A DNA stretch of 37,657 nucleotides, from NCBI RefSeq assembly GCF_000702165.1, contig NZ_JNKU01000028.1:1-37657 (forward strand), in the 5' to 3' direction. Below the pieces are notes generated by a model. It was given only the letters and a program-made list of their open reading frames with translations. It was not told the DNA's origin and searched no databases. Shown piece by piece: positions 10,871 through 22,189 of this stretch; within the stretch, counting starts at the first letter, position 1; the number at the start of each line of letters is the position of its first letter. Both the position numbers and the translations under genes were made by a program. Origin of the DNA: Sharpea azabuensis DSM 18934 (GTDB taxonomy: Bacteria; Bacillota_I; Bacilli_A; Erysipelotrichales; Coprobacillaceae).

Positions 10871-10880
10871 CATTACTTCA

Positions 10881-10970
10881 AAGAGACATATTTGTGTTAA
10901 TAATCACCATACATTTATATAACGCTATGAAACGCTTTCATGGTTTTACCTATGTATGATATACTTTCAA
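10881..10970 (+). repeat. Promoter-like direct repeat, copy A
   Basis: This stretch shares AAGAGACATATTTGT, AACGCTTTCATGG and GATATACTTTCA in the same order with copy B at 12273-12360. Both include an extended -10-like TATACT. The copies bracket the mazG-fic pair. Bases 10871-11104 otherwise hold only AT-rich sequence and the promoter of the MazG-like gene (TGTGATATACT, about 11068-11078). Confidence 0.6.
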
Positions 10971-11104: not shown

Positions 11105-11419
11105 ATGGATGAAATACAAGCATTAGTAAATAAATTTGTGAATGACAGAGACTGGGATCAGTATCACCAACCTGAAAAGCTAGCTATGTCGATATCTATT
11201 GAAGCTGCTGAACTTCTTGAACACTATCAATGGGGATATGATGGAGATGAACAGGGTGTAAAGGAAGAACTCGCTGACGTGCTTATTTATTGCTTTCAAA
11301 TGTGTGACAAGATTGGTGTAAGAGCTGATGATATCATTAAGATGAAAATGAAGAAGAATGAAGAGAAGTATCCAGTAGAGAAAGCTAAAGGGGTAGCGAC
11401 TAAGTACGATAAGTTATAG
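11105..11419 (+). CDS. MazG-like nucleotide pyrophosphohydrolase, copy 1
   Basis: The 104-residue all-helical protein has the metal-binding motifs of the MazG/dCTP pyrophosphatase superfamily: EAAELLEHYQW (E33, E36) and KEELADVLIYC (E54/E55, D58). Such enzymes hydrolyse nucleoside triphosphates (often dCTP or damaged dNTPs) to monophosphates. GGAGG precedes the ATG at 11105; the longer upstream frame runs through the promoter. It is 12 bp ahead of a fic gene, so it forms a two-gene operon. A second copy at 19945 differs at only three residues (N13S, D14Y, K95R). Confidence 0.88.
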   Translation: MDEIQALVNKFVNDRDWDQYHQPEKLAMSISIEAAELLEHYQWGYDGDEQGVKEELADVLIYCFQMCDKIGVRADDIIKMKMKKNEEKYPVEKAKGVATKYDKL

Positions 11420-11431
11420 AAGGAAAATGTG

Positions 11432-12040
11432 ATGGCACTAGACAATAAATTGGGAATTACTGATTCAGTAGAATTAGCGAAAGCAGAAGAAAAAATCAGT
11501 AAGAAAAGAGCTATAGAACTCTTTGAAAGTGGATATTTGGATACTCTTGAATCTGGTAGCTTTACTTCTCTTGTGGAAATACATAAATACTTATTTGATA
11601 CAATTTATGAATTTGCAGGAAAGATCAGAACTGTCAATATCGCCAAAGGGCATTTTCGCTTTGCGCCACTCATGTACCTAGAAGCAGCATTACAAAATAT
11701 CGAAAAAATGCCTCAATCAACATATGATGAAATCATCGAAAAATATGTTGAAATGAATATTGCTCACCCATTTCGTGAGGGGAATGGCAGAAGTACAAGA
11801 ATTTGGCTAGATTTGATTTTGAAGAAAGAATTGAGGCAGGTTGTAGCTTGGAGTCTTGTAGATAAAGAAGATTATCTTTTAGCTATGGAACGCAGTCCTA
11901 TTAGAGATATTGAAATCAAACACATCTTAAAGCAAGCATTAACAGATAAGATTAATGATCGTGATGTCTATATGAAAGGTATTGATCAAAGTTATTATTA
12001 CGAAGGTTATTCTATATATAAGACGAGTGATTTATTATAG
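11432..12040 (+). CDS. Fic-domain AMP-transferase with C-terminal inhibitory motif
   Basis: The 202-residue protein has the full Fic active site HPFREGNGRSTR starting at H112, so it should transfer AMP (or another nucleotide moiety) to a protein target. Near its end SYYYEG (residues 187-192) matches the autoinhibitory motif [S/T]xxxE[G/N]. A C-terminal motif places it in class III Fic proteins, like the small Neisseria Fic, which inhibit themselves through oligomer-sensitive contacts. The ATG at 11432 is preferred over the GTG at 11429 for spacing to AAGGA. The target is unknown. Pairing with a nucleotide pyrophosphohydrolase is notable. Confidence 0.9.
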   Translation: MALDNKLGITDSVELAKAEEKISKKRAIELFESGYLDTLESGSFTSLVEIHKYLFDTIYEFAGKIRTVNIAKGHFRFAPLMYLEAALQNIEKMPQSTYDEIIEKYVEMNIAHPFREGNGRSTRIWLDLILKKELRQVVAWSLVDKEDYLLAMERSPIRDIEIKHILKQALTDKINDRDVYMKGIDQSYYYEGYSIYKTSDLL

Positions 12041-12166: not shown

Positions 12167-12272
12167 GGAAGTCTTATATGATAGAACATAGACTTAAGAA
12201 AAAGCTGACCAGGAATGTATGAAGGTGTAGATAAAATTATCTTAATCGTATAATGACTAATTTCTTATCTAA

Positions 12273-12360
12273 AAGAGACATATTTGTATTAATTATCAAT
12301 AATCTTTCATACAAGTATATAAAACGCTTTCATGGCTACATTTATATGTGATATACTTTC
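12273..12360 (+). repeat. Promoter-like direct repeat, copy B
   Basis: Counterpart of copy A at 10881-10970 (shared AAGAGACATATTTGT, AACGCTTTCATGG, GATATACTTTCA). By eye the two are clearly homologous but not identical. Copy B lies upstream of cas9 and contains the promoter element described separately. Confidence 0.6.
12329..12357 (+). promoter_or_regulatory. Probable cas9 operon promoter
   Basis: TGATATACT (12349-12357) is an extended -10 element with a weak -35 (TTCATG, 12329-12334) 17 bp upstream. A transcript from about 12364 would give cas9 a leader of about 220 nt that covers the whole tracrRNA locus in antisense. No better promoter is visible closer to cas9. Confidence 0.45.
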
Positions 12361-12418
12361 ATAGTAAGGTCTTTCGAACAATATGTTCATTTTACAAAGT
12401 CATATTTTAAGACATTTA

Positions 12419-12582: not shown

Positions 12583-15500
12583 ATGGCTAAAAATAAGGAT
12601 ATAAGATATAGTATAGGACTAGATATAGGGACGAATTCTGTAGGCTGGGCAGTTATGGATGAACACTATGAACTGTTGAAAAAGGGAAATCACCATATGT
12701 GGGGATCAAGATTATTTGATGCAGCAGAACCAGCAGCAACAAGACGTGCAAGTCGTTCAATAAGAAGACGATACAATAAGAGACGAGAAAGAATAAGATT
12801 GCTTAGAGACTTACTTGGCGATATGGTTATGGAGGTTGATCCAACGTTCTTTATTCGTTTATTGAATGTATCATTCTTAGATGAAGAAGATAAGCAGAAG
12901 AATCTAGGTAATGATTATAAAGATAACTATAATCTTTTTATCGAAAAGGATTTTAATGATAAGACATATTATGATAAGTACCCAACAATCTATCATTTGA
13001 GAAAAGAGTTATGTGAGAATAAAGAGAAAGCTGATCCTCGCTTAATATACTTAGCTTTACATCATATTGTGAAATATCGTGGAAATTTCTTGTATGAAGG
13101 TCAAAGCTTTACAATGGACAATAGCGATATTGAAGAAAGACTGAATAGTGCTATTGAAAAATTTATGTCCATTAATGAATTTGATAATCGTATCGTTGAG
13201 AGTGATATCAATTCAATGATTGCAGTATTATCTAAGATTTATCAAAGATCCAAGAAAGCAGACGATCTACTTAAAATAATGAATCCTACTAAAGAAGAAA
13301 AAGCTGCGTATAAAGAATTTACTAAAGCATTAGTAGGCTTAAAATTCAACATATCTAAAATGATTCTTGCTCAAGAAGTGAAAAAAGGTGATACAGATAT
13401 TGTACTAGAGTTCTCTAATGCAAATTATGATAGTACAATAGATGAATTGCAGTCAGAATTAGGCGAGTATATTGAATTTATAGAAATGCTTCATAATATT
13501 TATAGTTGGGTTGAATTACAAGCAATCCTTGGCGCAACGCATACAGATAATCCATCTATTTCAGCTGCAATGGTTGAAAGATATGAAGAACACAAGAAAG
13601 ACTTGAGAGTTTTAAAGAAGGTAATACGTGAGGAATTACCTGATAAATATAATGAAGTATTTAGAAAAGATAACCGTAAACTTCATAACTATTTAGGCTA
13701 TATCAAATATCCTAAAGATACACCTGTAGAAGAATTCTATAAATATATTAAAGGACTATTGGCTAAAGTAGATACTGATGAGGCAAGAGAAATTCTAGAA
13801 CGTATTGATCTAGAAAAATTCATGTTAAAACAGAACTCAAGAACAAATGGATCAATTCCATATCAAATGCAGAAAGATGAAATGATTCAAATTATTGATA
13901 ATCAGTCTGTTTATTATCCACAATTAAAAGAAAATAGAGATAAATTAATCTCCATTCTTGAATTTAGAATCCCATATTATTTTGGTCCATTAAATGCACA
14001 TTCAGAATTTGCTTGGATCAAGAAATTCGAGGATAAACAAAAAGAAAGAATACTGCCATGGAATTATGACCAAATTGTAGATATTGACGCAACTGCAGAA
14101 GGCTTTATAGAACGTATGAAGAATACGGGAACATACTTTCCTGATGAACCTGTTATGGCAAAGAACTCTCTTACTGTAAGTAAGTTTGAGGTATTAAATG
14201 AACTTAATAAGATTCGTATTAATGGTAAGCTTATAGCAGTAGAGACAAAAAAGGAATTATTGTCAGACCTATTTATGAAAAACAAGACAATTACTGATAA
14301 AAAACTGAAGGATTGGCTTGTAACACATCAGTACTATGATATAAATGAAGAATTGAAAATAGAAGGCTATCAAAAAGATTTACAATTCTCTACATCTTTA
14401 GCTCCATGGATTGATTTTACAAAGATATTTGGTGAGATTAATGCATCAAATTATCAATTAATTGAAAAGATCATTTATGATATTTCTATTTTTGAAGATA
14501 AGAAAATACTTAAAAGAAGACTCAAGAAGGTCTATCAACTTGATGACTTATTAGTTGATAAAATCTTGAAATTAAACTATACAGGATGGTCTAGATTGTC
14601 AGAAAAACTCTTAACTGGTATGACTGCGGATAATGAGTTTGGATCTAAAGCAACAGTTTTATTTGTTTTGGAGAATTCTAACAAGAATTTAATGGAAATC
14701 ATAAACGATGAAAAGCTTGGTTATAAGCAAATCATTGAAGAGAGTAATATGCAAGATATTGAAGGACCTTTCAAATATGATGAGGTGAAAAAGCTTGCAG
14801 GCTCACCAGCAATTAAGAGAGGAATATGGCAAGCACTACTTGTGGTTCGGGAAATCACTAAATTCATGAAACATGAACCAAGTCATATCTATATTGAATT
14901 TGCGAGAGAGGAGCAAGAAAAGGTAAGAAAAGAATCAAAAATAGCTAAGTTACAGAAAATTTATGAAAACTTGAATTTACAAACTAAAGAAGATCAGCAA
15001 GTCTATGAATCCTTGAAAAAAGAAGATGCGAAGAAAAGAATGGAGACAGATGCACTTTATCTATATTACTTACAGATGGGAAAGAGTATGTACTCAGGTA
15101 AACCTCTTGACATTGATAAACTTAGTACATATCAGATTGATCACATTCTTCCACAATCTCTAATAAAGGATGATAGCTTTGATAATAGAGTTCTTGTCTT
15201 ACCGGAGGAAAATCAATGGAAACTTGATAGCGAAACAGTCCCATTTGAAATAAGAAATAAAATGATTGGATTCTGGCAAATGCTTCATGAAAATGGTCTT
15301 ATGTCTAACAAGAAGTTCTTTTCACTTATTCGAACAGATTTTAGCGACAAAGACAAAGAACGCTTTATCAATAGACAATTGGTTGAAACAAGACAAATCA
15401 TCAAGAATGTTGCAGTCATTATTAATGATCATTATACGAATACAAATATTGTGACAGTAAGAGCAGAATTATCTCACCAATTTAGAGAAAGATATAAAAT

Positions 15501-16590
15501 CTATAAGAATCGTGATATTAATGATTTTCATCATGCGCATGATGCATATATTGCATGTATAGTTGGTCAATTCATGCATCAAAACTTCGAACATCTTGAT
15601 GCAAAAATCATTTATGGTCAGTACAAAAAGAACTATAAGAAAGATGTAAAACATCATAATAACTATGGCTTCATTCTTAATAGCATGAATCATCTACAAT
15701 CTGATATTGATACAGGTGAAGTGATGTGGGATCCTGCTAAAATTGGTAAGATCAAATCTTGTTTCTATTATAAAGATGTTTATGTAACAAAGAAATTGGA
15801 ACAAAATTCTGGTACATTGTTCAATGTAACGGTATTACCAAATGATGCTCATTCAGAAAAAGGAATTACTGCAGCAACGGTACCTCTAAATAAATATCGT
15901 GCGGATGTTCATAAATATGGCGGCTTCGGAAATGTACAATCTATTATCGTCGCAATAGAAGGAAAAAAGAAAAAGGGCAAGAAGCTAATAGATGTAAGGA
16001 AGCTTACAAGTATTCCATTGCATTTAAAGAATGCCCCAGTTGAAGAACAACTTTCATATATTGCTTCGCCAGAACATGAAGATCTGATAGATGTAAGAAT
16101 TGTTAAGGAAATACTCAAAAATCAGCTAATAGAAATTGATGGTGGTCTTTACTACGTTACATCTCCTACAGAATACGTAACTGCAAGACAATTATCACTC
16201 AATGAACAAAGCTGTAAATTAATTAGTGAAATCTATGCAGCAATGTTAAAAAAGCGTTATGAGTATTTAGATGAAGAAGAAATTTTTGATTTGTACCTTC
16301 AACTATTACAAAAGATGGATACGTTATATCCGGCTTATAAAGGAATCGCGAAGAGATTCTTTGATAGAGCTGAGGACTTTAAGAATATTGATGTTGTTGA
16401 GAAATGTGATGTTATAAAGCAGATTTTAATTATTATGCATGCAGGTCCTATGAATGGAAATATAATGTATGATGATTTTAAGTTTACTAATCGTATTGGG
16501 AGGTTTACACATAAAAATATTGACCTCAATAAAACAACCTTTATTTCCACTTCTGTTACAGGTTTATTCTCTAAAAAATATAAGTTATGA
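12583..16590 (+). CDS. cas9: CRISPR-associated endonuclease Cas9, type II-A
   Basis: The 1335-residue RNA-guided DNA nuclease is intact. RuvC-I is IGLDIGTNSVGWAV with D14. The arginine-rich bridge helix is RRASRSIRRRYNKRRERIR. RuvC-II is IYIEFAREEQ with E772. The HNH motif is YQIDHILPQSL with H854 and N877 (the position of SpCas9 N863). RuvC-III is HHAHDAYIACIVG with H984 and D987. Length and order match the Streptococcus-type II-A branch (SpCas9 is 1368 aa). GGGAGG precedes the ATG by 12 bases. The stop codon overlaps the cas1 start (ATGA). The PAM cannot be read from the sequence. Confidence 0.98.
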   Translation: MAKNKDIRYSIGLDIGTNSVGWAVMDEHYELLKKGNHHMWGSRLFDAAEPAATRRASRSIRRRYNKRRERIRLLRDLLGDMVMEVDPTFFIRLLNVSFLDEEDKQKNLGNDYKDNYNLFIEKDFNDKTYYDKYPTIYHLRKELCENKEKADPRLIYLALHHIVKYRGNFLYEGQSFTMDNSDIEERLNSAIEKFMSINEFDNRIVESDINSMIAVLSKIYQRSKKADDLLKIMNPTKEEKAAYKEFTKALVGLKFNISKMILAQEVKKGDTDIVLEFSNANYDSTIDELQSELGEYIEFIEMLHNIYSWVELQAILGATHTDNPSISAAMVERYEEHKKDLRVLKKVIREELPDKYNEVFRKDNRKLHNYLGYIKYPKDTPVEEFYKYIKGLLAKVDTDEAREILERIDLEKFMLKQNSRTNGSIPYQMQKDEMIQIIDNQSVYYPQLKENRDKLISILEFRIPYYFGPLNAHSEFAWIKKFEDKQKERILPWNYDQIVDIDATAEGFIERMKNTGTYFPDEPVMAKNSLTVSKFEVLNELNKIRINGKLIAVETKKELLSDLFMKNKTITDKKLKDWLVTHQYYDINEELKIEGYQKDLQFSTSLAPWIDFTKIFGEINASNYQLIEKIIYDISIFEDKKILKRRLKKVYQLDDLLVDKILKLNYTGWSRLSEKLLTGMTADNEFGSKATVLFVLENSNKNLMEIINDEKLGYKQIIEESNMQDIEGPFKYDEVKKLAGSPAIKRGIWQALLVVREITKFMKHEPSHIYIEFAREEQEKVRKESKIAKLQKIYENLNLQTKEDQQVYESLKKEDAKKRMETDALYLYYLQMGKSMYSGKPLDIDKLSTYQIDHILPQSLIKDDSFDNRVLVLPEENQWKLDSETVPFEIRNKMIGFWQMLHENGLMSNKKFFSLIRTDFSDKDKERFINRQLVETRQIIKNVAVIINDHYTNTNIVTVRAELSHQFRERYKIYKNRDINDFHHAHDAYIACIVGQFMHQNFEHLDAKIIYGQYKKNYKKDVKHHNNYGFILNSMNHLQSDIDTGEVMWDPAKIGKIKSCFYYKDVYVTKKLEQNSGTLFNVTVLPNDAHSEKGITAATVPLNKYRADVHKYGGFGNVQSIIVAIEGKKKKGKKLIDVRKLTSIPLHLKNAPVEEQLSYIASPEHEDLIDVRIVKEILKNQLIEIDGGLYYVTSPTEYVTARQLSLNEQSCKLISEIYAAMLKKRYEYLDEEEIFDLYLQLLQKMDTLYPAYKGIAKRFFDRAEDFKNIDVVEKCDVIKQILIIMHAGPMNGNIMYDDFKFTNRIGRFTHKNIDLNKTTFISTSVTGLFSKKYKL

Positions 16591-17459
16591 GCTGGCGTAT
16601 AGTAGTTATTGATCATAAGGCAAAACTCTCGTATAAGAATGGGTATTTAATTGTAAGAAATGAAGAAATAAAAAAGATTCATTTATCTGAGATTAATACA
16701 ATTATTATCAATTCTACTGCAACCGTTATTACTTCCTACTTAGTAAATGAATTACTAAGTAGGAAGATAAAGGTTGTATTCTGTGATGAAAAGCGTAATC
16801 CAGCAGGTGAAATTGTATCGTACTATGGTTGTCATAACTCATCCAAACGCATTCAAGAACAGTTATCTTGGGATAAAGAATATTCTACCCTAATCTGGAC
16901 AAGAATAATAAAAGAGAAAATCTATAATCAAGCTAAGCTTCTTGAAATTGAAGACAAAGATAAAGCAGATATGCTTTATTCGTATTGTGATAATGTTAAG
17001 TTTAATGACGAAACAAATAGAGAAGGACATTCTGCTAAAGTTTATTTCAATAGTTTGTTTGGCCTTCAATTTACCAGAGATGCAAAGATAGATGTTAATG
17101 CAGCATTGGATTATGGATATTCAATAATTCTTTCGCAATTTAATAGAGAGGTTGTTGCCCAGGGATGTTTAACACAGTTAGGTATTAAACATAGAAATGA
17201 ATTCAATCCATTTAATTTATCATCGGATTTAATGGAACCATTTCGTCCATTAGTTGATCGAATAGTATATGAAAATATGAATGAGGTGTTTGATGGGACT
17301 ATGAAGCTAAAGCTTATTGATGTATTAAATCATCGTGTTCATATTAGTAATAGTAACCAATATGTATCTAATGCCATTAGTTTATATGTTAAGAGTGTTG
17401 TTAAGGCTTTAAAGGATAAAGATGTTGATGAAATAGAATTTTTTGATTATGAGTTATAG
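16587..17459 (+). CDS. cas1: CRISPR integrase Cas1, type II
   Basis: The 290-residue spacer-acquisition integrase has its metal ligands: E146 in NREGHSAKVYF, H202 in LGIKHRNEFNPFNL, and E217 in DLMEPFRPLVD. It forms a Cas1-Cas2 complex that inserts prespacers at the leader end of the array. The ATG overlaps the cas9 stop by 4 bp, so translation is coupled. The protein is of normal length for type II Cas1. Confidence 0.97.
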   Translation: MSWRIVVIDHKAKLSYKNGYLIVRNEEIKKIHLSEINTIIINSTATVITSYLVNELLSRKIKVVFCDEKRNPAGEIVSYYGCHNSSKRIQEQLSWDKEYSTLIWTRIIKEKIYNQAKLLEIEDKDKADMLYSYCDNVKFNDETNREGHSAKVYFNSLFGLQFTRDAKIDVNAALDYGYSIILSQFNREVVAQGCLTQLGIKHRNEFNPFNLSSDLMEPFRPLVDRIVYENMNEVFDGTMKLKLIDVLNHRVHISNSNQYVSNAISLYVKSVVKALKDKDVDEIEFFDYEL

Positions 17460-17769
17460 ATATATGAGAATGATATTGTTTTTTGACTTGCCTATGCAGA
17501 CTTATTTAGATAGGAAAGAATATACTTTGTTTAGAAAGTTCTTAATAAATGATGGTTTTATAATGATGCAAGAAAGTGTTTATTGTAAGTTAGCACTCAA
17601 TAATTCAATAGTTAAAGCAGAAAGAACAAGATTAGAAGCACACAAGCCACCCGATGGTGATGTAGAGTTATTAGTTATTACAGAAAAACAGTTCTCGCAA
17701 ATAGACTACATTGTAGGTAAAAAGAAAGCTGAAACTGAAGATAGTGAAAATAGGTTAATAGTGTTATGA
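17449..17769 (+). CDS. cas2: CRISPR-associated Cas2, type II
   Basis: The 106-residue ferredoxin-fold protein has MRMILFFDLP with the conserved D13 at the end of the first strand, followed by YTLFRKFLINDGFIMMQESVY cut into the usual helix and strand. It is the structural partner of Cas1. The ATG at 17449 lies within the last codons of cas1 (11-bp overlap). The upstream in-frame TTG is not needed. It overlaps csn2 by 4 bp. Confidence 0.95.
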   Translation: MSYRYMRMILFFDLPMQTYLDRKEYTLFRKFLINDGFIMMQESVYCKLALNNSIVKAERTRLEAHKPPDGDVELLVITEKQFSQIDYIVGKKKAETEDSENRLIVL

Positions 17770-18446
17770 AACTAAACATTATGGGGCTTGATGAAAGTAT
17801 TGAGTTTAATGACTATTCTAATACTGTACTCATTATTAAAGAGCCAAAATTCTATTCACATGTTTTGAAAACAATATCAACAATAATCAAAGATAAAAAT
17901 AAAACCAATGAAATAGTATTATTAGATGACAAAGATAAAAACATATTACCTAAATCATTATTCATACTCAATCCATTTGAATTAGACCTAAATTCAAAGC
18001 CTTTATTAAAAGCTATCTATACAGACATACAGTCAAAGATTATTGATGATGGAGATTTAGATATTGAATTCAAAGAACATATCCAATTTCTTAATCAAAT
18101 CATAGAAAATAGTTTAGAAGACTATAATCTTGATTTCGACTATGATCAAGAACTTCTTGTTGAGAACTATCTGAAAGCTATTGGATTAAAGGTTGTAAAG
18201 GATATGGATGAACCATTATATAATACATTCATAAATTATCTTGAATTAATCTCTGAATTACTTCCTGATTCAGTATTAATCATAGCTAATTGTCTAGAAT
18301 ACTTTGAACATGATCAAATAGTAGAAATCTGTAAATATAAAAATTACAAGCATCTAAATCTCTTATTCATCGAATCTTATTTAAGTAACTTTGATGAAGC
18401 AACTAAATATATTATTGATGAAGATCTGTTTCAAGTGATAGAATAA
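17766..18446 (+). CDS. csn2: Csn2, type II-A adaptation protein
   Basis: This 226-residue protein is in the diagnostic fourth position of a II-A operon. The N-terminal segment IEFNDYSNTVLIIKEPKFYS and the strongly acidic, helical body fit the Csn2 family, whose tetrameric rings bind DNA ends and are required for spacer acquisition. It overlaps cas2 by 4 bp and is followed by the 66-base leader of the array. The subgroup assignment rests on length (about 220 aa, Csn2a-like) and position. Confidence 0.92.
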   Translation: MKLNIMGLDESIEFNDYSNTVLIIKEPKFYSHVLKTISTIIKDKNKTNEIVLLDDKDKNILPKSLFILNPFELDLNSKPLLKAIYTDIQSKIIDDGDLDIEFKEHIQFLNQIIENSLEDYNLDFDYDQELLVENYLKAIGLKVVKDMDEPLYNTFINYLELISELLPDSVLIIANCLEYFEHDQIVEICKYKNYKHLNLLFIESYLSNFDEATKYIIDEDLFQVIE

Positions 18447-18512: not shown

Positions 18513-19803
18513 GTTTTAGAGTTGTGTTATTTTGGACTGAACTAAAACTTTTTTCCTCTTTTAATTAATAAATTCTAAGTTTTAGAGTTGTGTTATTTTG
18601 GACTGAACTAAAACATGTCCATGTGATCCATCGCTTTCAAGACTGTTTTAGAGTTGTGTTATTTTGGACTGAACTAAAACTATTCTAATTGCGATATTTT
18701 GTGTTTTTGCGTTTTAGAGTTGTGTTATTTTGGACTGAACTAAAACAGGTGGAAATGTTGCGGGTGCGGTTGGATTGTTTTAGAGTTGTGTTATTTTGGA
18801 CTGAACTAAAACTATTGACACATTAGCAAATGAAGTTATCAAGTTTTAGAGTTGTGTTATTTTGGACTGAACTAAAACATGGCAGCGTCAAGAGAAGATG
18901 ACTCAAGAGTTTTAGAGTTGTGTTATTTTGGACTGAACTAAAACAATCGATTCTTGCAAAAGAATACGGTCTAAGTTTTAGAGTTGTGTTATTTTGGACT
19001 GAACTAAAACATCAACGAAACAGCACTCAATTAAAAGTGCGTTTTAGAGTTGTGTTATTTTGGACTGAACTAAAACAGATGTAATTTTTTATGACTGGCA
19101 AGACAAGTTTTAGAGTTGTGTTATTTTGGACTGAACTAAAACTATCAGAGGTGTCGTGGTTCATGAAAGAGCGTTTTAGAGTTGTGTTATTTTGGACTGA
19201 ACTAAAACTCAACACGCTGAATAGGAAGCTGATGGAAAGTTTTAGAGTTGTGTTATTTTGGACTGAACTAAAACGCAGACATTTCTTGCAGAACCACCAA
19301 CTGAGTTTTAGAGTTGTGTTATTTTGGGCTGAACTAAAACTATGCCTACATTGGGAGAGATTGTTGACTAGTTTTAGAGTTGTGTTATTTTGGACTGAAC
19401 TAAAACTGACTTCTAACAAATGAAGTAGTATTGTATGTTTTAGAGTTGTGTTATTTTGGACTGAACTAAAACCATTGGACATAGCAACCGTTCTTATTCC
19501 ATTGTTTTAGAGTTGTGTTATTTTGGACTGAACTAAAACAGAGCGGAATATACAAAAGCGAAAGGCAGAGTTTTAGAGTTGTGTTATTTTGGACTGAACT
19601 AAAACATCTATTACTAACAATGACGCAAGCTTATAGTTTTAGAGTTGTGTTATTTTGGATTGAACTAAAACGAGGTAACACCTGACGAAACTCGTATTTA
19701 CGTTTTAGAGTTGTGTTATTTTGGACTGAACTAAAACTCCATAAGTTCCATTGATGACAATCTTCAAGTTTTAGAGTTGTGTTATTTTGGACTGAACTAA
19801 ACC
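18513..19803 (+). CRISPR. Type II-A CRISPR array, 20 repeats and 19 spacers
   Basis: 36-bp repeats start GTTTTAGAGTTGTG, continue TTATTTTGGACTGA and end ACTAAAAC. I count 20 copies starting at 18513, 18579, 18645, 18711, 18777, 18843, 18909, 18975, 19041, 19107, 19173, 19239, 19305, 19371, 19437, 19504, 19570, 19636, 19702 and 19768. Spacers are 30 nt except spacer 15 (19473-19503), which is 31. Repeat 13 has GGGCTG for GGACTG, repeat 18 has GGATTG, and the last repeat ends AACC. Variants lie toward the distal end, so the leader is on the left and crRNAs are plus-strand. No spacer obviously matches the rest of the window. Confidence 0.99.
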
Positions 19804-19944
19804 GTAACCTTACTATTATGTCTTATATAATGTTTTATAAAGTGTAATTATAATTGTAAGTATAATGATGATGGGAATGAAGAAAGTGACTCTTCATTCT
19901 CTTTCTTATGTTATACTTAGAATGGCTTTTTGGAGGGAAATGTA

Positions 19945-20259
19945 ATGGATGAAATACAAGCATTAGTAAATAAATTTGTGAGTTATAGAGACTGGGATCA
20001 GTATCACCAGCCAGAGAAGCTTGCTATGTCTATATCTATAGAAGCAGCTGAACTGCTAGAACATTATCAATGGGGATATGATGGTGATGAACAGGGTGTT
20101 AAGGAAGAACTAGCTGATGTTCTTATTTATTGTTTTCAGATGTGTGACAAGATTGGTGTAAGAGCTGATGATATTATTAAGATGAAAATGAAGAAGAATG
20201 AAGAGAAGTATCCAGTAGAGAAAGCTAGAGGAGTAGCTACTAAGTACGATAAGTTATGA
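19945..20259 (+). CDS. MazG-like nucleotide pyrophosphohydrolase, copy 2
   Basis: Same length (104 aa) and motifs as copy 1 (EAAELLEHYQW, KEELADVLIYC), with only three amino-acid differences. By my count about 26 of 315 bases differ, mostly at third positions, so both copies appear to be kept under selection. GGAGGG precedes the ATG, and an extended -10 TGTTATACT lies at about 19908-19916. Its stop codon overlaps the start of the nuclease-helicase gene (ATGA), making translational coupling likely. Bases 19804-19944 hold only the promoter region, which resembles that of copy 1. Confidence 0.88.
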   Translation: MDEIQALVNKFVSYRDWDQYHQPEKLAMSISIEAAELLEHYQWGYDGDEQGVKEELADVLIYCFQMCDKIGVRADDIIKMKMKKNEEKYPVEKARGVATKYDKL

Positions 20260-22124
20260 TTATTTATAAAGAGAGTAAGAAACAGTTTGTTGCAGATGTT
20301 TTCAATGATTGTATTGAAGAGAAAATCAACAATATGATGATTGAAAAAATGCATCGACATACAGGAGAAGCGGAATATCGTTCATGGGCAAACAGTATGC
20401 AATATATGTACAAGGTGATGGATTCGGATAGCATTCCTGATGATGTTGATGTTGCAATAGAGTATCGTATTCCAAATTCAAATAAAAGAGTTGACTTCAT
20501 TGTTGCTGGTGAAGGTGAAAATGGTGAAGAGAATGCTGTAGTAATTGAATTGAAGCAATGGCAAAGTGCCCAAAGGGTGACGGATAAGAATGGCCTTGTG
20601 AGAACTGCTTTAGGTGGCTCTTTAAGAGAAACAACGCATCCTTCATATCAGGCATGGTCATATGTTTCTATGATTCAGGATTACAATGAAGATGTAAGAA
20701 AATATCATATTGACTTAGAGCCATGTACTTATCTTCATAATTACGTAAGATCAGAAAATGATCCATTGCTTGATCGTATTTATTCTTACTATACAAGAAA
20801 AGCACCTGTCTTTATGAGAGGTGATGCATTAAAACTTAGAGAATATATTACGAAATATATAAAGAAAGCAAACAATAAAACACTTTATGAAATAGAATTT
20901 GGTCGCATTAAGCCATCAAAGTCTTTGCAAGATACGATGGTTAATCTATTAGCTGGTAAAGAAGAATTTAAGTTGATAGATGAACAGAAGGTTATCTTCG
21001 AACAAGTTTTATCTCTTGCAAAGCTCAATGATAATAAAAAACGAACAGTCATCATTCATGGTGGACCTGGCACAGGCAAATCTGTTTTAGCTATTAATTT
21101 GCTGGCGAAAACAATGGGTGAACTTGCAAGCAATAGTATGTATGTCACAAAGAATCAAGCACCCCGTAGTGTATATAGCGAAAAGCTACAAGAAGGTAAT
21201 TATCGTAAAGCAACAATAGATAACTTATTCAAGGGTTCAGGTTCGTTTATTGACACTCCTGCTAATTTCTTTGATAGTTTGTTTATTGATGAAGCCCATC
21301 GATTAAATGCTAAGAGTGGTATGTTTTCTAATAAAGGTGAAAATCAGGTTAAAGAACTTATTAATGCTGCTAAGCTTTCTGTCTTTTTTGTTGATGATCA
21401 CCAGCAAGTTACTTTAAAGGATATTGGCTCGACGGATGAAATTAAAAAATGGGCTCATTTCTATCATACAAGTGTTTATGAATATACACTTGCATCACAG
21501 TTTCGATGCAATGGTAGCGATGGTTATTTAAACTGGATTGATGATGTCTTGGAGGTACAGCCTACCGCAAATGATGTCTTTGATTTAGATTATGATGTTA
21601 GAGTTTATGATGATCCTAATGAGGTTTATCAAGAAGTTTTAAAGCACAATGATAATAATAAAGCAAGAATGCTTGCTGGATACTGCTGGAACTGGCTTAA
21701 AGATGGAAAAGCTGATAGTTCAGTGCATGATATAGAAATACCGGAATTTGATTTTGGGATGTCGTGGAATTTAGGCTCCACTTCTACATGGGCAATAGAT
21801 AAAGATTCGGTAAATGAAGTAGGCTGTATTCATACATGCCAGGGATTGGAATTTGATTATGTCGGCGTTATTATTGGGGATGATATGCGCTATGAAAATG
21901 GACATATCATTACTGATTTTACAAAACGTGCTAAAACAGATAAATCATTATTTGGGATTAAGAAGCTTTATAAAGAACAACCAGAAGAAGCGTTAAAAAG
22001 AGCTGATCATATTATTAAGAATACTTATCGCACATTATTAACAAGGGGACAAAAAGGCTGTTTTATATATTGTACAGATAGCGCATTAGCAAATTATTTC
22101 AAAGCACGCCTTAGTTATAAATAA
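20256..22124 (+). CDS. PD-(D/E)XK nuclease-like plus Schlafen-group-3/DUF2075 helicase-like protein
   Basis: This is a 622-residue two-domain protein. The N-terminal part has RVDFIVAG (D80) and VVIELKQW (E98, K100), the D...ExK signature of PD-(D/E)XK nucleases. The rest is an SF1-like ATPase of the DUF2075 (SLFN-g3 helicase) type: Walker A GGPGTGKS at 269-276, Walker B FIDEAH with D345/E346, SQFRCNGSDGYLNWI, IHTCQGLEFDYVGVIIG and NTYRTLLTRGQKG as later helicase motifs. It should cut or unwind nucleic acid using ATP. It overlaps the MazG-like gene by 4 bp. No ribosome site is visible, so it is probably coupled. The defence role is an inference from domain content and position beside CRISPR. 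Confidence 0.88.
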   Translation: MIIYKESKKQFVADVFNDCIEEKINNMMIEKMHRHTGEAEYRSWANSMQYMYKVMDSDSIPDDVDVAIEYRIPNSNKRVDFIVAGEGENGEENAVVIELKQWQSAQRVTDKNGLVRTALGGSLRETTHPSYQAWSYVSMIQDYNEDVRKYHIDLEPCTYLHNYVRSENDPLLDRIYSYYTRKAPVFMRGDALKLREYITKYIKKANNKTLYEIEFGRIKPSKSLQDTMVNLLAGKEEFKLIDEQKVIFEQVLSLAKLNDNKKRTVIIHGGPGTGKSVLAINLLAKTMGELASNSMYVTKNQAPRSVYSEKLQEGNYRKATIDNLFKGSGSFIDTPANFFDSLFIDEAHRLNAKSGMFSNKGENQVKELINAAKLSVFFVDDHQQVTLKDIGSTDEIKKWAHFYHTSVYEYTLASQFRCNGSDGYLNWIDDVLEVQPTANDVFDLDYDVRVYDDPNEVYQEVLKHNDNNKARMLAGYCWNWLKDGKADSSVHDIEIPEFDFGMSWNLGSTSTWAIDKDSVNEVGCIHTCQGLEFDYVGVIIGDDMRYENGHIITDFTKRAKTDKSLFGIKKLYKEQPEEALKRADHIIKNTYRTLLTRGQKGCFIYCTDSALANYFKARLSYK

Positions 22125-22135
22125 ATTGGATATGC

Positions 22136-22189
22136 AAAAAGATAACTCCAGAACACAACTATACACTTGTGTTCTGGAGTTATCTTTTT
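22136..22189 (+). terminator. Very long perfect hairpin terminator
   Basis: A 23-bp perfect stem, left arm 22136-22158 (starts AAAAAGATAACTCC), 8-base loop, right arm 22167-22189 (ends GGAGTTATCTTTTT), followed by further Ts. It would work in both directions, since it is flanked by A- and T-tracts. Confidence 0.9.

Follow-up and report, generated by a model that had tools for sequence, protein, structure and literature searches.

Architecture of the locus

The window analysed here, 37,657 nucleotides of Sharpea azabuensis DSM 18934, carries on its forward strand two overlapping genes that lie directly behind a CRISPR array. The first (19945-20259) encodes a 104-residue MazG-like all-alpha NTP pyrophosphatase of the DCTPP1/RS21-C6 type, which matches Pfam PF12643 (1.2e-19) and also the Pfam MazG family PF03819. 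The second (20256-22124) encodes a 622-residue protein that joins a predicted PD-(D/E)XK nuclease to an SF1 helicase of the Schlafen group 3/DUF2075 type, with residues 262-608 matching PF09848 at 2.5e-104. An earlier note, made from the letters alone, had described a 104-residue MazG-like frame running into a 622-residue frame by 4 bp, and both the ATGA overlap (20256-20259, + strand) and the Pfam matches agree with it. The motifs singled out there are likewise present. In the large protein these are RVDF...VIELKQW (D80, E98 and K100), GGPGTGKS and FIDEAH; in the small protein they are the metal-binding residues E33/E36 and E55/D58, which do not vary in an alignment of nine members of the family.

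The pair is followed by an intrinsic terminator (22136-22189, + strand) with a 23-bp stem, an 8-nt loop and a T tail. Its arms (22136-22158 and 22167-22189, 23 nt each) are perfectly complementary and precede a run of T, as had been noted, and terminator-like sites number five against 0.8 in shuffled sequence. The claim that the pair has its own extended -10 promoter fared less well. The extended -10-like sequence TGTTATACT can be read by eye at 19909-19917 (+ strand), yet its support is not beyond chance, because promoter-like sites number 12 against 13.1 in shuffles, with no excess. No regulator gene adjoining the pair is encoded in the window.

Upstream, a type II-A cas9-cas1-cas2-csn2 operon (12583-18446, + strand) is followed by an array of 20 repeats (18513-19803, + strand) that ends 139 bp before the MazG start, confirming the described position of the pair. 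A further MazG-like gene, missed in the first reading, lies outside the pair at 11105-11419 on the same strand and duplicates the first (92% nucleotide identity over 300 nt; 97% protein identity), so that the two copies bracket the whole CRISPR-Cas9 locus. This second copy precedes a gene for an NmFic-type Fic protein (11429-12040, + strand; NF046029 at 1.1e-93, PADLOC PDC-S04 at 7.4e-104). In Sharpea porci, whose helicase is 93% identical to that of the window, the order is array, Fic, MazG and helicase. It follows that the MazG copy before Fic in the window reflects a local duplication or rearrangement, and that proximity to CRISPR is characteristic at the level of the genus. We considered whether the pair is specifically tied to CRISPR and rejected the idea, since Fic intervenes between the array and the pair in Sharpea porci and relatives elsewhere have other neighbours. 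Separately, a 97-bp upstream region occurs twice in the window, at 10873-10969 before the MazG-Fic genes and at 12265-12361 before cas9, with 76% identity.

A predicted nuclease joined to a Schlafen-type helicase

The PF09848/DUF2075 match of the large protein is full-length (profile positions 1-354 of 354) and scores 349.8 bits against a curated cut-off of 24. Structural comparison of the AlphaFold model places the helicase core near UvrD, RecD2, HelD and the SLFN11 helicase. The N-terminal domain (residues 1-218, encoded at 20256-20909, + strand), modelled separately, gives a pLDDT of 93.7 and an alpha-beta-beta-beta-alpha-beta succession that is the element order of PD-(D/E)XK nucleases. 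The folds of both parts can be regarded as confident predictions, and the earlier note's reservation, that residues 1-130 might prove to lack such a fold, is answered by a PD-(D/E)XK-like prediction of high confidence for residues 1-218.

Foldseek returned weak matches for the N-terminal domain, none of them significant. With VIA-align the best match is Can2 (Z 9.2, rmsd 3.2, 135 residues aligned), and Can2, Cdn1, Card1, Can1, BstEII, EndoMS, BsaWI, Shedu and Hachiman all rank high; most of the top matches are PD-(D/E)XK nucleases. The candidate active-site residues D80, E98 and K100 are invariant among 48 sequences from Bacillota, archaea, Bacteroidota, Pseudomonadota and a cyanophage. We consider that the N-terminal domain probably cleaves DNA.

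Pfam searches of the large protein found no known modified-base reader domain (EVE, SRA and the like), so that a dependence on modified DNA would be argued from association alone. A search of PHROGs with the helicase returned generic ATPase matches only.

Linkage of the MazG-like and helicase genes

To follow the pair across genomes we took the best 80 homologues of the helicase, one genome per species, and scored MazG as adjacent when it lay within 150 bp on the same strand, after correcting two gene starts by hand. Of these 80 helicases, 57 have MazG next to them, 29 on the upstream and 28 on the downstream side, and the genes mostly overlap or lie no more than 20 bp apart. The expectation that MazG would be conserved immediately upstream therefore holds for adjacency, and for position in about half of the linked cases. 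The description of the two genes as fused by translation coupling stands for the 4-bp overlap in the window, but not as a general arrangement, given the homologues in which MazG comes second. No single-chain fusion of MazG with the helicase was found in the fetched loci.

The tree of helicases requires at least 18 changes among the states MazG upstream, downstream and absent. Such repeated shuffling of gene order with adjacency kept argues strongly that the two proteins are functionally linked. The distance matrices of MazG and helicase are correlated (r 0.68, against a best value of 0.13 in 999 shuffles), and among the dozen closest relatives of this MazG in Sharpea's family, eight adjoin a Schlafen-group-3 helicase. 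In Lactiplantibacillus, in Ligilactobacillus and in loci L011 and L012 a GIY-YIG domain replaces the PD-(D/E)XK domain while MazG is kept, on either side. The pair also occurs in the archaeon Halalkalicoccus, in Marivirga (Bacteroidota), on a Priestia plasmid and in a Microcystis phage; it has passed between domains at about 50-55% identity, and within Sharpea's own family the helicase is patchy, being present in 10 of 43 genomes. MazG and the helicase thus form a real, horizontally spread unit. The link is not obligatory, as 23 of 83 helicases lack a MazG neighbour. Of 17 such genomes that were searched, 10 have a MazG relative elsewhere and the other seven have none at all, which implies that some lineages have a helicase able to work without MazG.

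The tight coupling and co-divergence of the two proteins might also be read as a sign that MazG restrains its partner in the manner of an antitoxin, by binding or removing a nucleotide signal that would otherwise switch the nuclease-helicase on. The structural proximity of the nuclease domain to effectors of the Can2/Card1 type, whose activity is controlled by cyclic oligoadenylates, is in keeping with such a role. We nevertheless regard it as very improbable: many helicases have no MazG beside them, the Pfam search detected neither a CARF domain nor any other signal-sensing domain in the large protein, and the NTP pyrophosphatase site residues of MazG are fully conserved.

Restriction genes around the pair

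The neighbourhoods of the pair are rich in genes of restriction systems. Across the 80 loci, MazG apart, the genes that recur most often are C5 methylases (11), SauUSI-like PLD-helicases recognised by the mREase_IV profile (10) and NUDIX proteins (10), followed by McrC (8), a small methyltransferase (8), McrB (7), HNH nucleases (7), GmrSD (4) and Vsr (3). McrBC, SauUSI-like and GmrSD enzymes act on modified cytosine. The NUDIX gene that recurs in these islands is NudG/MutT-like. At least one restriction-type family is present in 34 of the 80 loci and in none of 20 random 20-kb regions of Sharpea's family, a contrast that is biased upward by the choice of families that were already seen to recur. 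With that bias in mind, the enrichment in defence genes that the earlier note suggested looking for is present, and the homologues do not as a rule lack MazG and sit in housekeeping contexts, the outcome that would have spoken against its proposal.

The density of McrB provides an independent yardstick. McrB occurs in 7 of 18 Paenibacillaceae loci (0.36 Mb), while 61 Paenibacillaceae genomes (about 348 Mb) hold 15 copies, so that about 0.015 would be expected; on the tree the seven loci belong to about four distinct lineages. For the C5 methylase (PF00145) the figures are 11 in 1.3 Mb of loci and any copy in 22 of 43 genomes of Sharpea's family, a family sample having replaced a phylum-wide one that consisted mostly of small mollicute-like genomes and was unsuitable. 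When 140 neighbours drawn at random and 140 control genes were compared by PADLOC, the outcome was uninformative, since the comparison covered the top families only and one control region held a CRISPR locus. We also observed an uncharacterised HNH protein of about 390 residues (cluster c8) near the pair at L035 (5745-6917) and six further loci, in company with a small SAM methyltransferase (c7); it has no match in PADLOC.

These surroundings bear on whether the pair might serve repair and housecleaning, with MazG clearing nucleotides that have been oxidised or damaged and the helicase-nuclease repairing DNA that contains them, so that the restriction genes would be no more than companions in shared mobile surroundings. 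DCTPP1, mycobacterial MazG and MutT are indeed housecleaning enzymes, and the helicase fold resembles UvrD, RecD2 and HelD. A patchy distribution, transfer across domains, carriage on plasmids and a phage, and the strength of the restriction-gene association all weigh against this reading, however, and make it improbable. Rather, a pair that travels together in bacteria, archaea and a phage, with frequent defence genes beside it, is probably an unnamed two-part system of defence against foreign DNA.

Kinship of the MazG-like protein with DCTPP1

The closest characterised and best-annotated structural relatives of the small protein are, by sequence comparison, DCTPP1/RS21-C6. A profile of the MazG family matches their structures at E 5.8e-24 over residues 2-104, and the window protein alone, used as query, matches DCTPP1/RS21-C6 at 4e-15 and the pyrophosphatase 4qgp at 1.2e-19. 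The similarity to DCTPP1/RS21-C6 spans the full length, including the metal motifs and the C-terminal KY motifs. DCTPP1/RS21-C6 hydrolyse 5-methyl-, 5-formyl- and halo-dCTP (PMC7162842; PMC10742078), and DCTPP1 also hydrolyses plain dCTP (PMC7162842). Mycobacterial MazG prefers 5-OH-dCTP (PMC3855555), and Orf135/NudG is a known 5-methyl-dCTP hydrolase (PMC10742078).

This kinship points to dCTP and C5-modified dCTP, rather than all dNTPs, as the likeliest range of substrates. On the evidence of the relatives, we judge the chances of a dCTP-type substrate (dCTP together with C5-modified dCTP) to be about even. The company of McrBC, SauUSI-like and GmrSD enzymes, the NudG/MutT-like NUDIX gene and a single fusion of MazG to an Mrr_N domain favour modified dCTP within that range.

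Related MazG proteins in other operons

Proteins of the same MazG type occur in operons of other kinds. In L016 (5806-9098, genome G010) the last gene of a SIR2-HerA operon encodes a near-identical MazG, and that genome's own helicase-MazG pair lies only a few kilobases away. In L184 (3879-10560, genome G014) there is an apparently complete JetABCD operon, with Wadjet-like gene sizes and JetD identified by Pfam, and the gene for a DCTPP1-type MazG shares about 28 bp with the end of jetD; in L185, from a related genome, the MazG after the Wadjet-like operon is decayed or lost. The Mrr_N fusion is a 232-residue protein encoded in L033 (8849-9547), about 450 bp before a nuclease-helicase, and in L129 (462-1821, genome G019) a solitary DCTPP1-type MazG stands directly before an ADP-ribosylglycohydrolase.

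The Wadjet and SIR2-HerA operons are not modified-cytosine systems. Their use of this MazG argues against a purely modified-cytosine role, and limitation of plain dNTPs fits them equally well. A C5 methylase in 11 loci argues in the same direction, since it would endanger the host beside a general 5mC-dependent nuclease. One could therefore envisage general nucleotide depletion, in which MazG, on infection, turns canonical dNTPs into dNMPs and starves phage replication, while the nuclease-helicase degrades DNA and signals or enforces arrest; MazG would in addition block the phage from recycling dNMPs freed by DNA cutting. The recurrence of the enzyme at the end of unrelated DNA-attacking operons (Schlafen-group-3 nucleases, Wadjet, SIR2-HerA) and the activity of DCTPP1 on plain dCTP agree with depletion. 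The relatives of DCTPP1 are selective rather than general, though, and a constitutive depleting enzyme would harm the host, with no regulator beside the pair in the window. We consider depletion rather unlikely.

A broader proposal, which we put forward tentatively, is that the DCTPP1-type MazG may be a general nucleotide-pool arm of many DNA-attacking defence operons: Schlafen-group-3 helicases with either nuclease, Wadjet, SIR2-HerA and the Mrr_N fusion. Together with the NudG-like NUDIX protein it would destroy modified deoxycytidine triphosphates, leaving phage unable to escape by base modification and sparing the host attack by its own modified-DNA nucleases.

Comparison with known systems

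Among known defence systems, Nhi (nuclease-helicase immunity) of Staphylococcus epidermidis, which responds to phage SSB, and AbiO resemble the large protein in joining a nuclease and an SF1 helicase in one chain. Their PADLOC profiles match only part of the helicase (Nhi: residues 236-419, 49.8 bits, model positions 179-331 of 470; AbiO: residues 235-419, 54 bits, model positions 174-329 of 468) and leave the N-terminal nuclease unmatched. Moreover, Nhi is a single-gene system (PMC12904381), whereas the pair has a MazG partner. The PADLOC profile PDC-S41 does not extend over the whole protein either, reaching 57.6 bits in three short stretches, the best at 525-606. Because all three profiles cover parts of the helicase only, we do not file it under any of them.

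A parallel in genetic design is type IV restriction by SauUSI, for which neighbouring MutT homologues were noted earlier (Bell et al., 2020, PMC7641849): a nuclease-helicase for modified DNA stands beside a nucleotide pyrophosphohydrolase. SauUSI, however, combines a PLD nuclease with an SF2 helicase and MutT, whereas here a PD-(D/E)XK domain and an SF1 helicase, in which no known modified-base reader was found, accompany a DCTPP1-type MazG. SauUSI-like PLD-helicase and NUDIX genes share islands with the pair.

The vertebrate Schlafen group III proteins SLFN11 and SLFN14 have a homologous helicase type, as judged by PF09848 and by structural matches, but their Schlafen RNase core was not detected in the large protein, whose N-terminal half is a predicted PD-(D/E)XK nuclease instead. 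DCTPP1 itself is a eukaryotic housekeeping enzyme, whereas the MazG described here is encoded next to a nuclease-helicase as part of a mobile module.

MazG figures among the defence domains that DefensePredictor predicts but has not validated (PMC13092281); the main text of that study makes no mention of Schlafen or helicase genes and does not describe the pair. In our literature search, which covered openly available papers and preprints within PMC, we found neither a description of the DUF2075-MazG pair nor experiments on any member of it; DUF2075 is mentioned in five of the papers covered, none of which deals with the pair. Nuclease-helicase defence systems are known, as is the proposal of MazG as a defence domain; what is new, within the reach of that search, is the pairing, together with the kinship of this MazG with DCTPP1.

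A model for the two-gene module

A role in defence is, in our view, likely for the pair. For the reading as a whole, we favour, with somewhat more restraint, an unnamed, horizontally spread two-gene module of restriction type, composed of a nuclease-helicase and a nucleotide-pool arm. In such a module the nuclease-helicase would load onto foreign DNA, translocate along it at the expense of ATP and cleave it. MazG would act on the nucleotide pool, its most likely targets being dCTP and C5-modified dCTP (methyl-, hydroxymethyl- or oxidised). Two consequences can be imagined. Removal of modified dCTP may prevent the phage from building protective modified cytosine into its DNA; alternatively, MazG may keep stray modified cytosine out of host DNA, which would otherwise be cut by the neighbouring modified-cytosine restriction enzymes.

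A widely conserved pairing of nuclease-helicase and MazG, with two interchangeable nuclease types and a named substrate hypothesis, makes a specific case that lends itself readily to testing. Should MazG indeed act on modified dCTP, the module would link the restriction of modified DNA to control over its precursors, an arm of immunity that is rarely considered.
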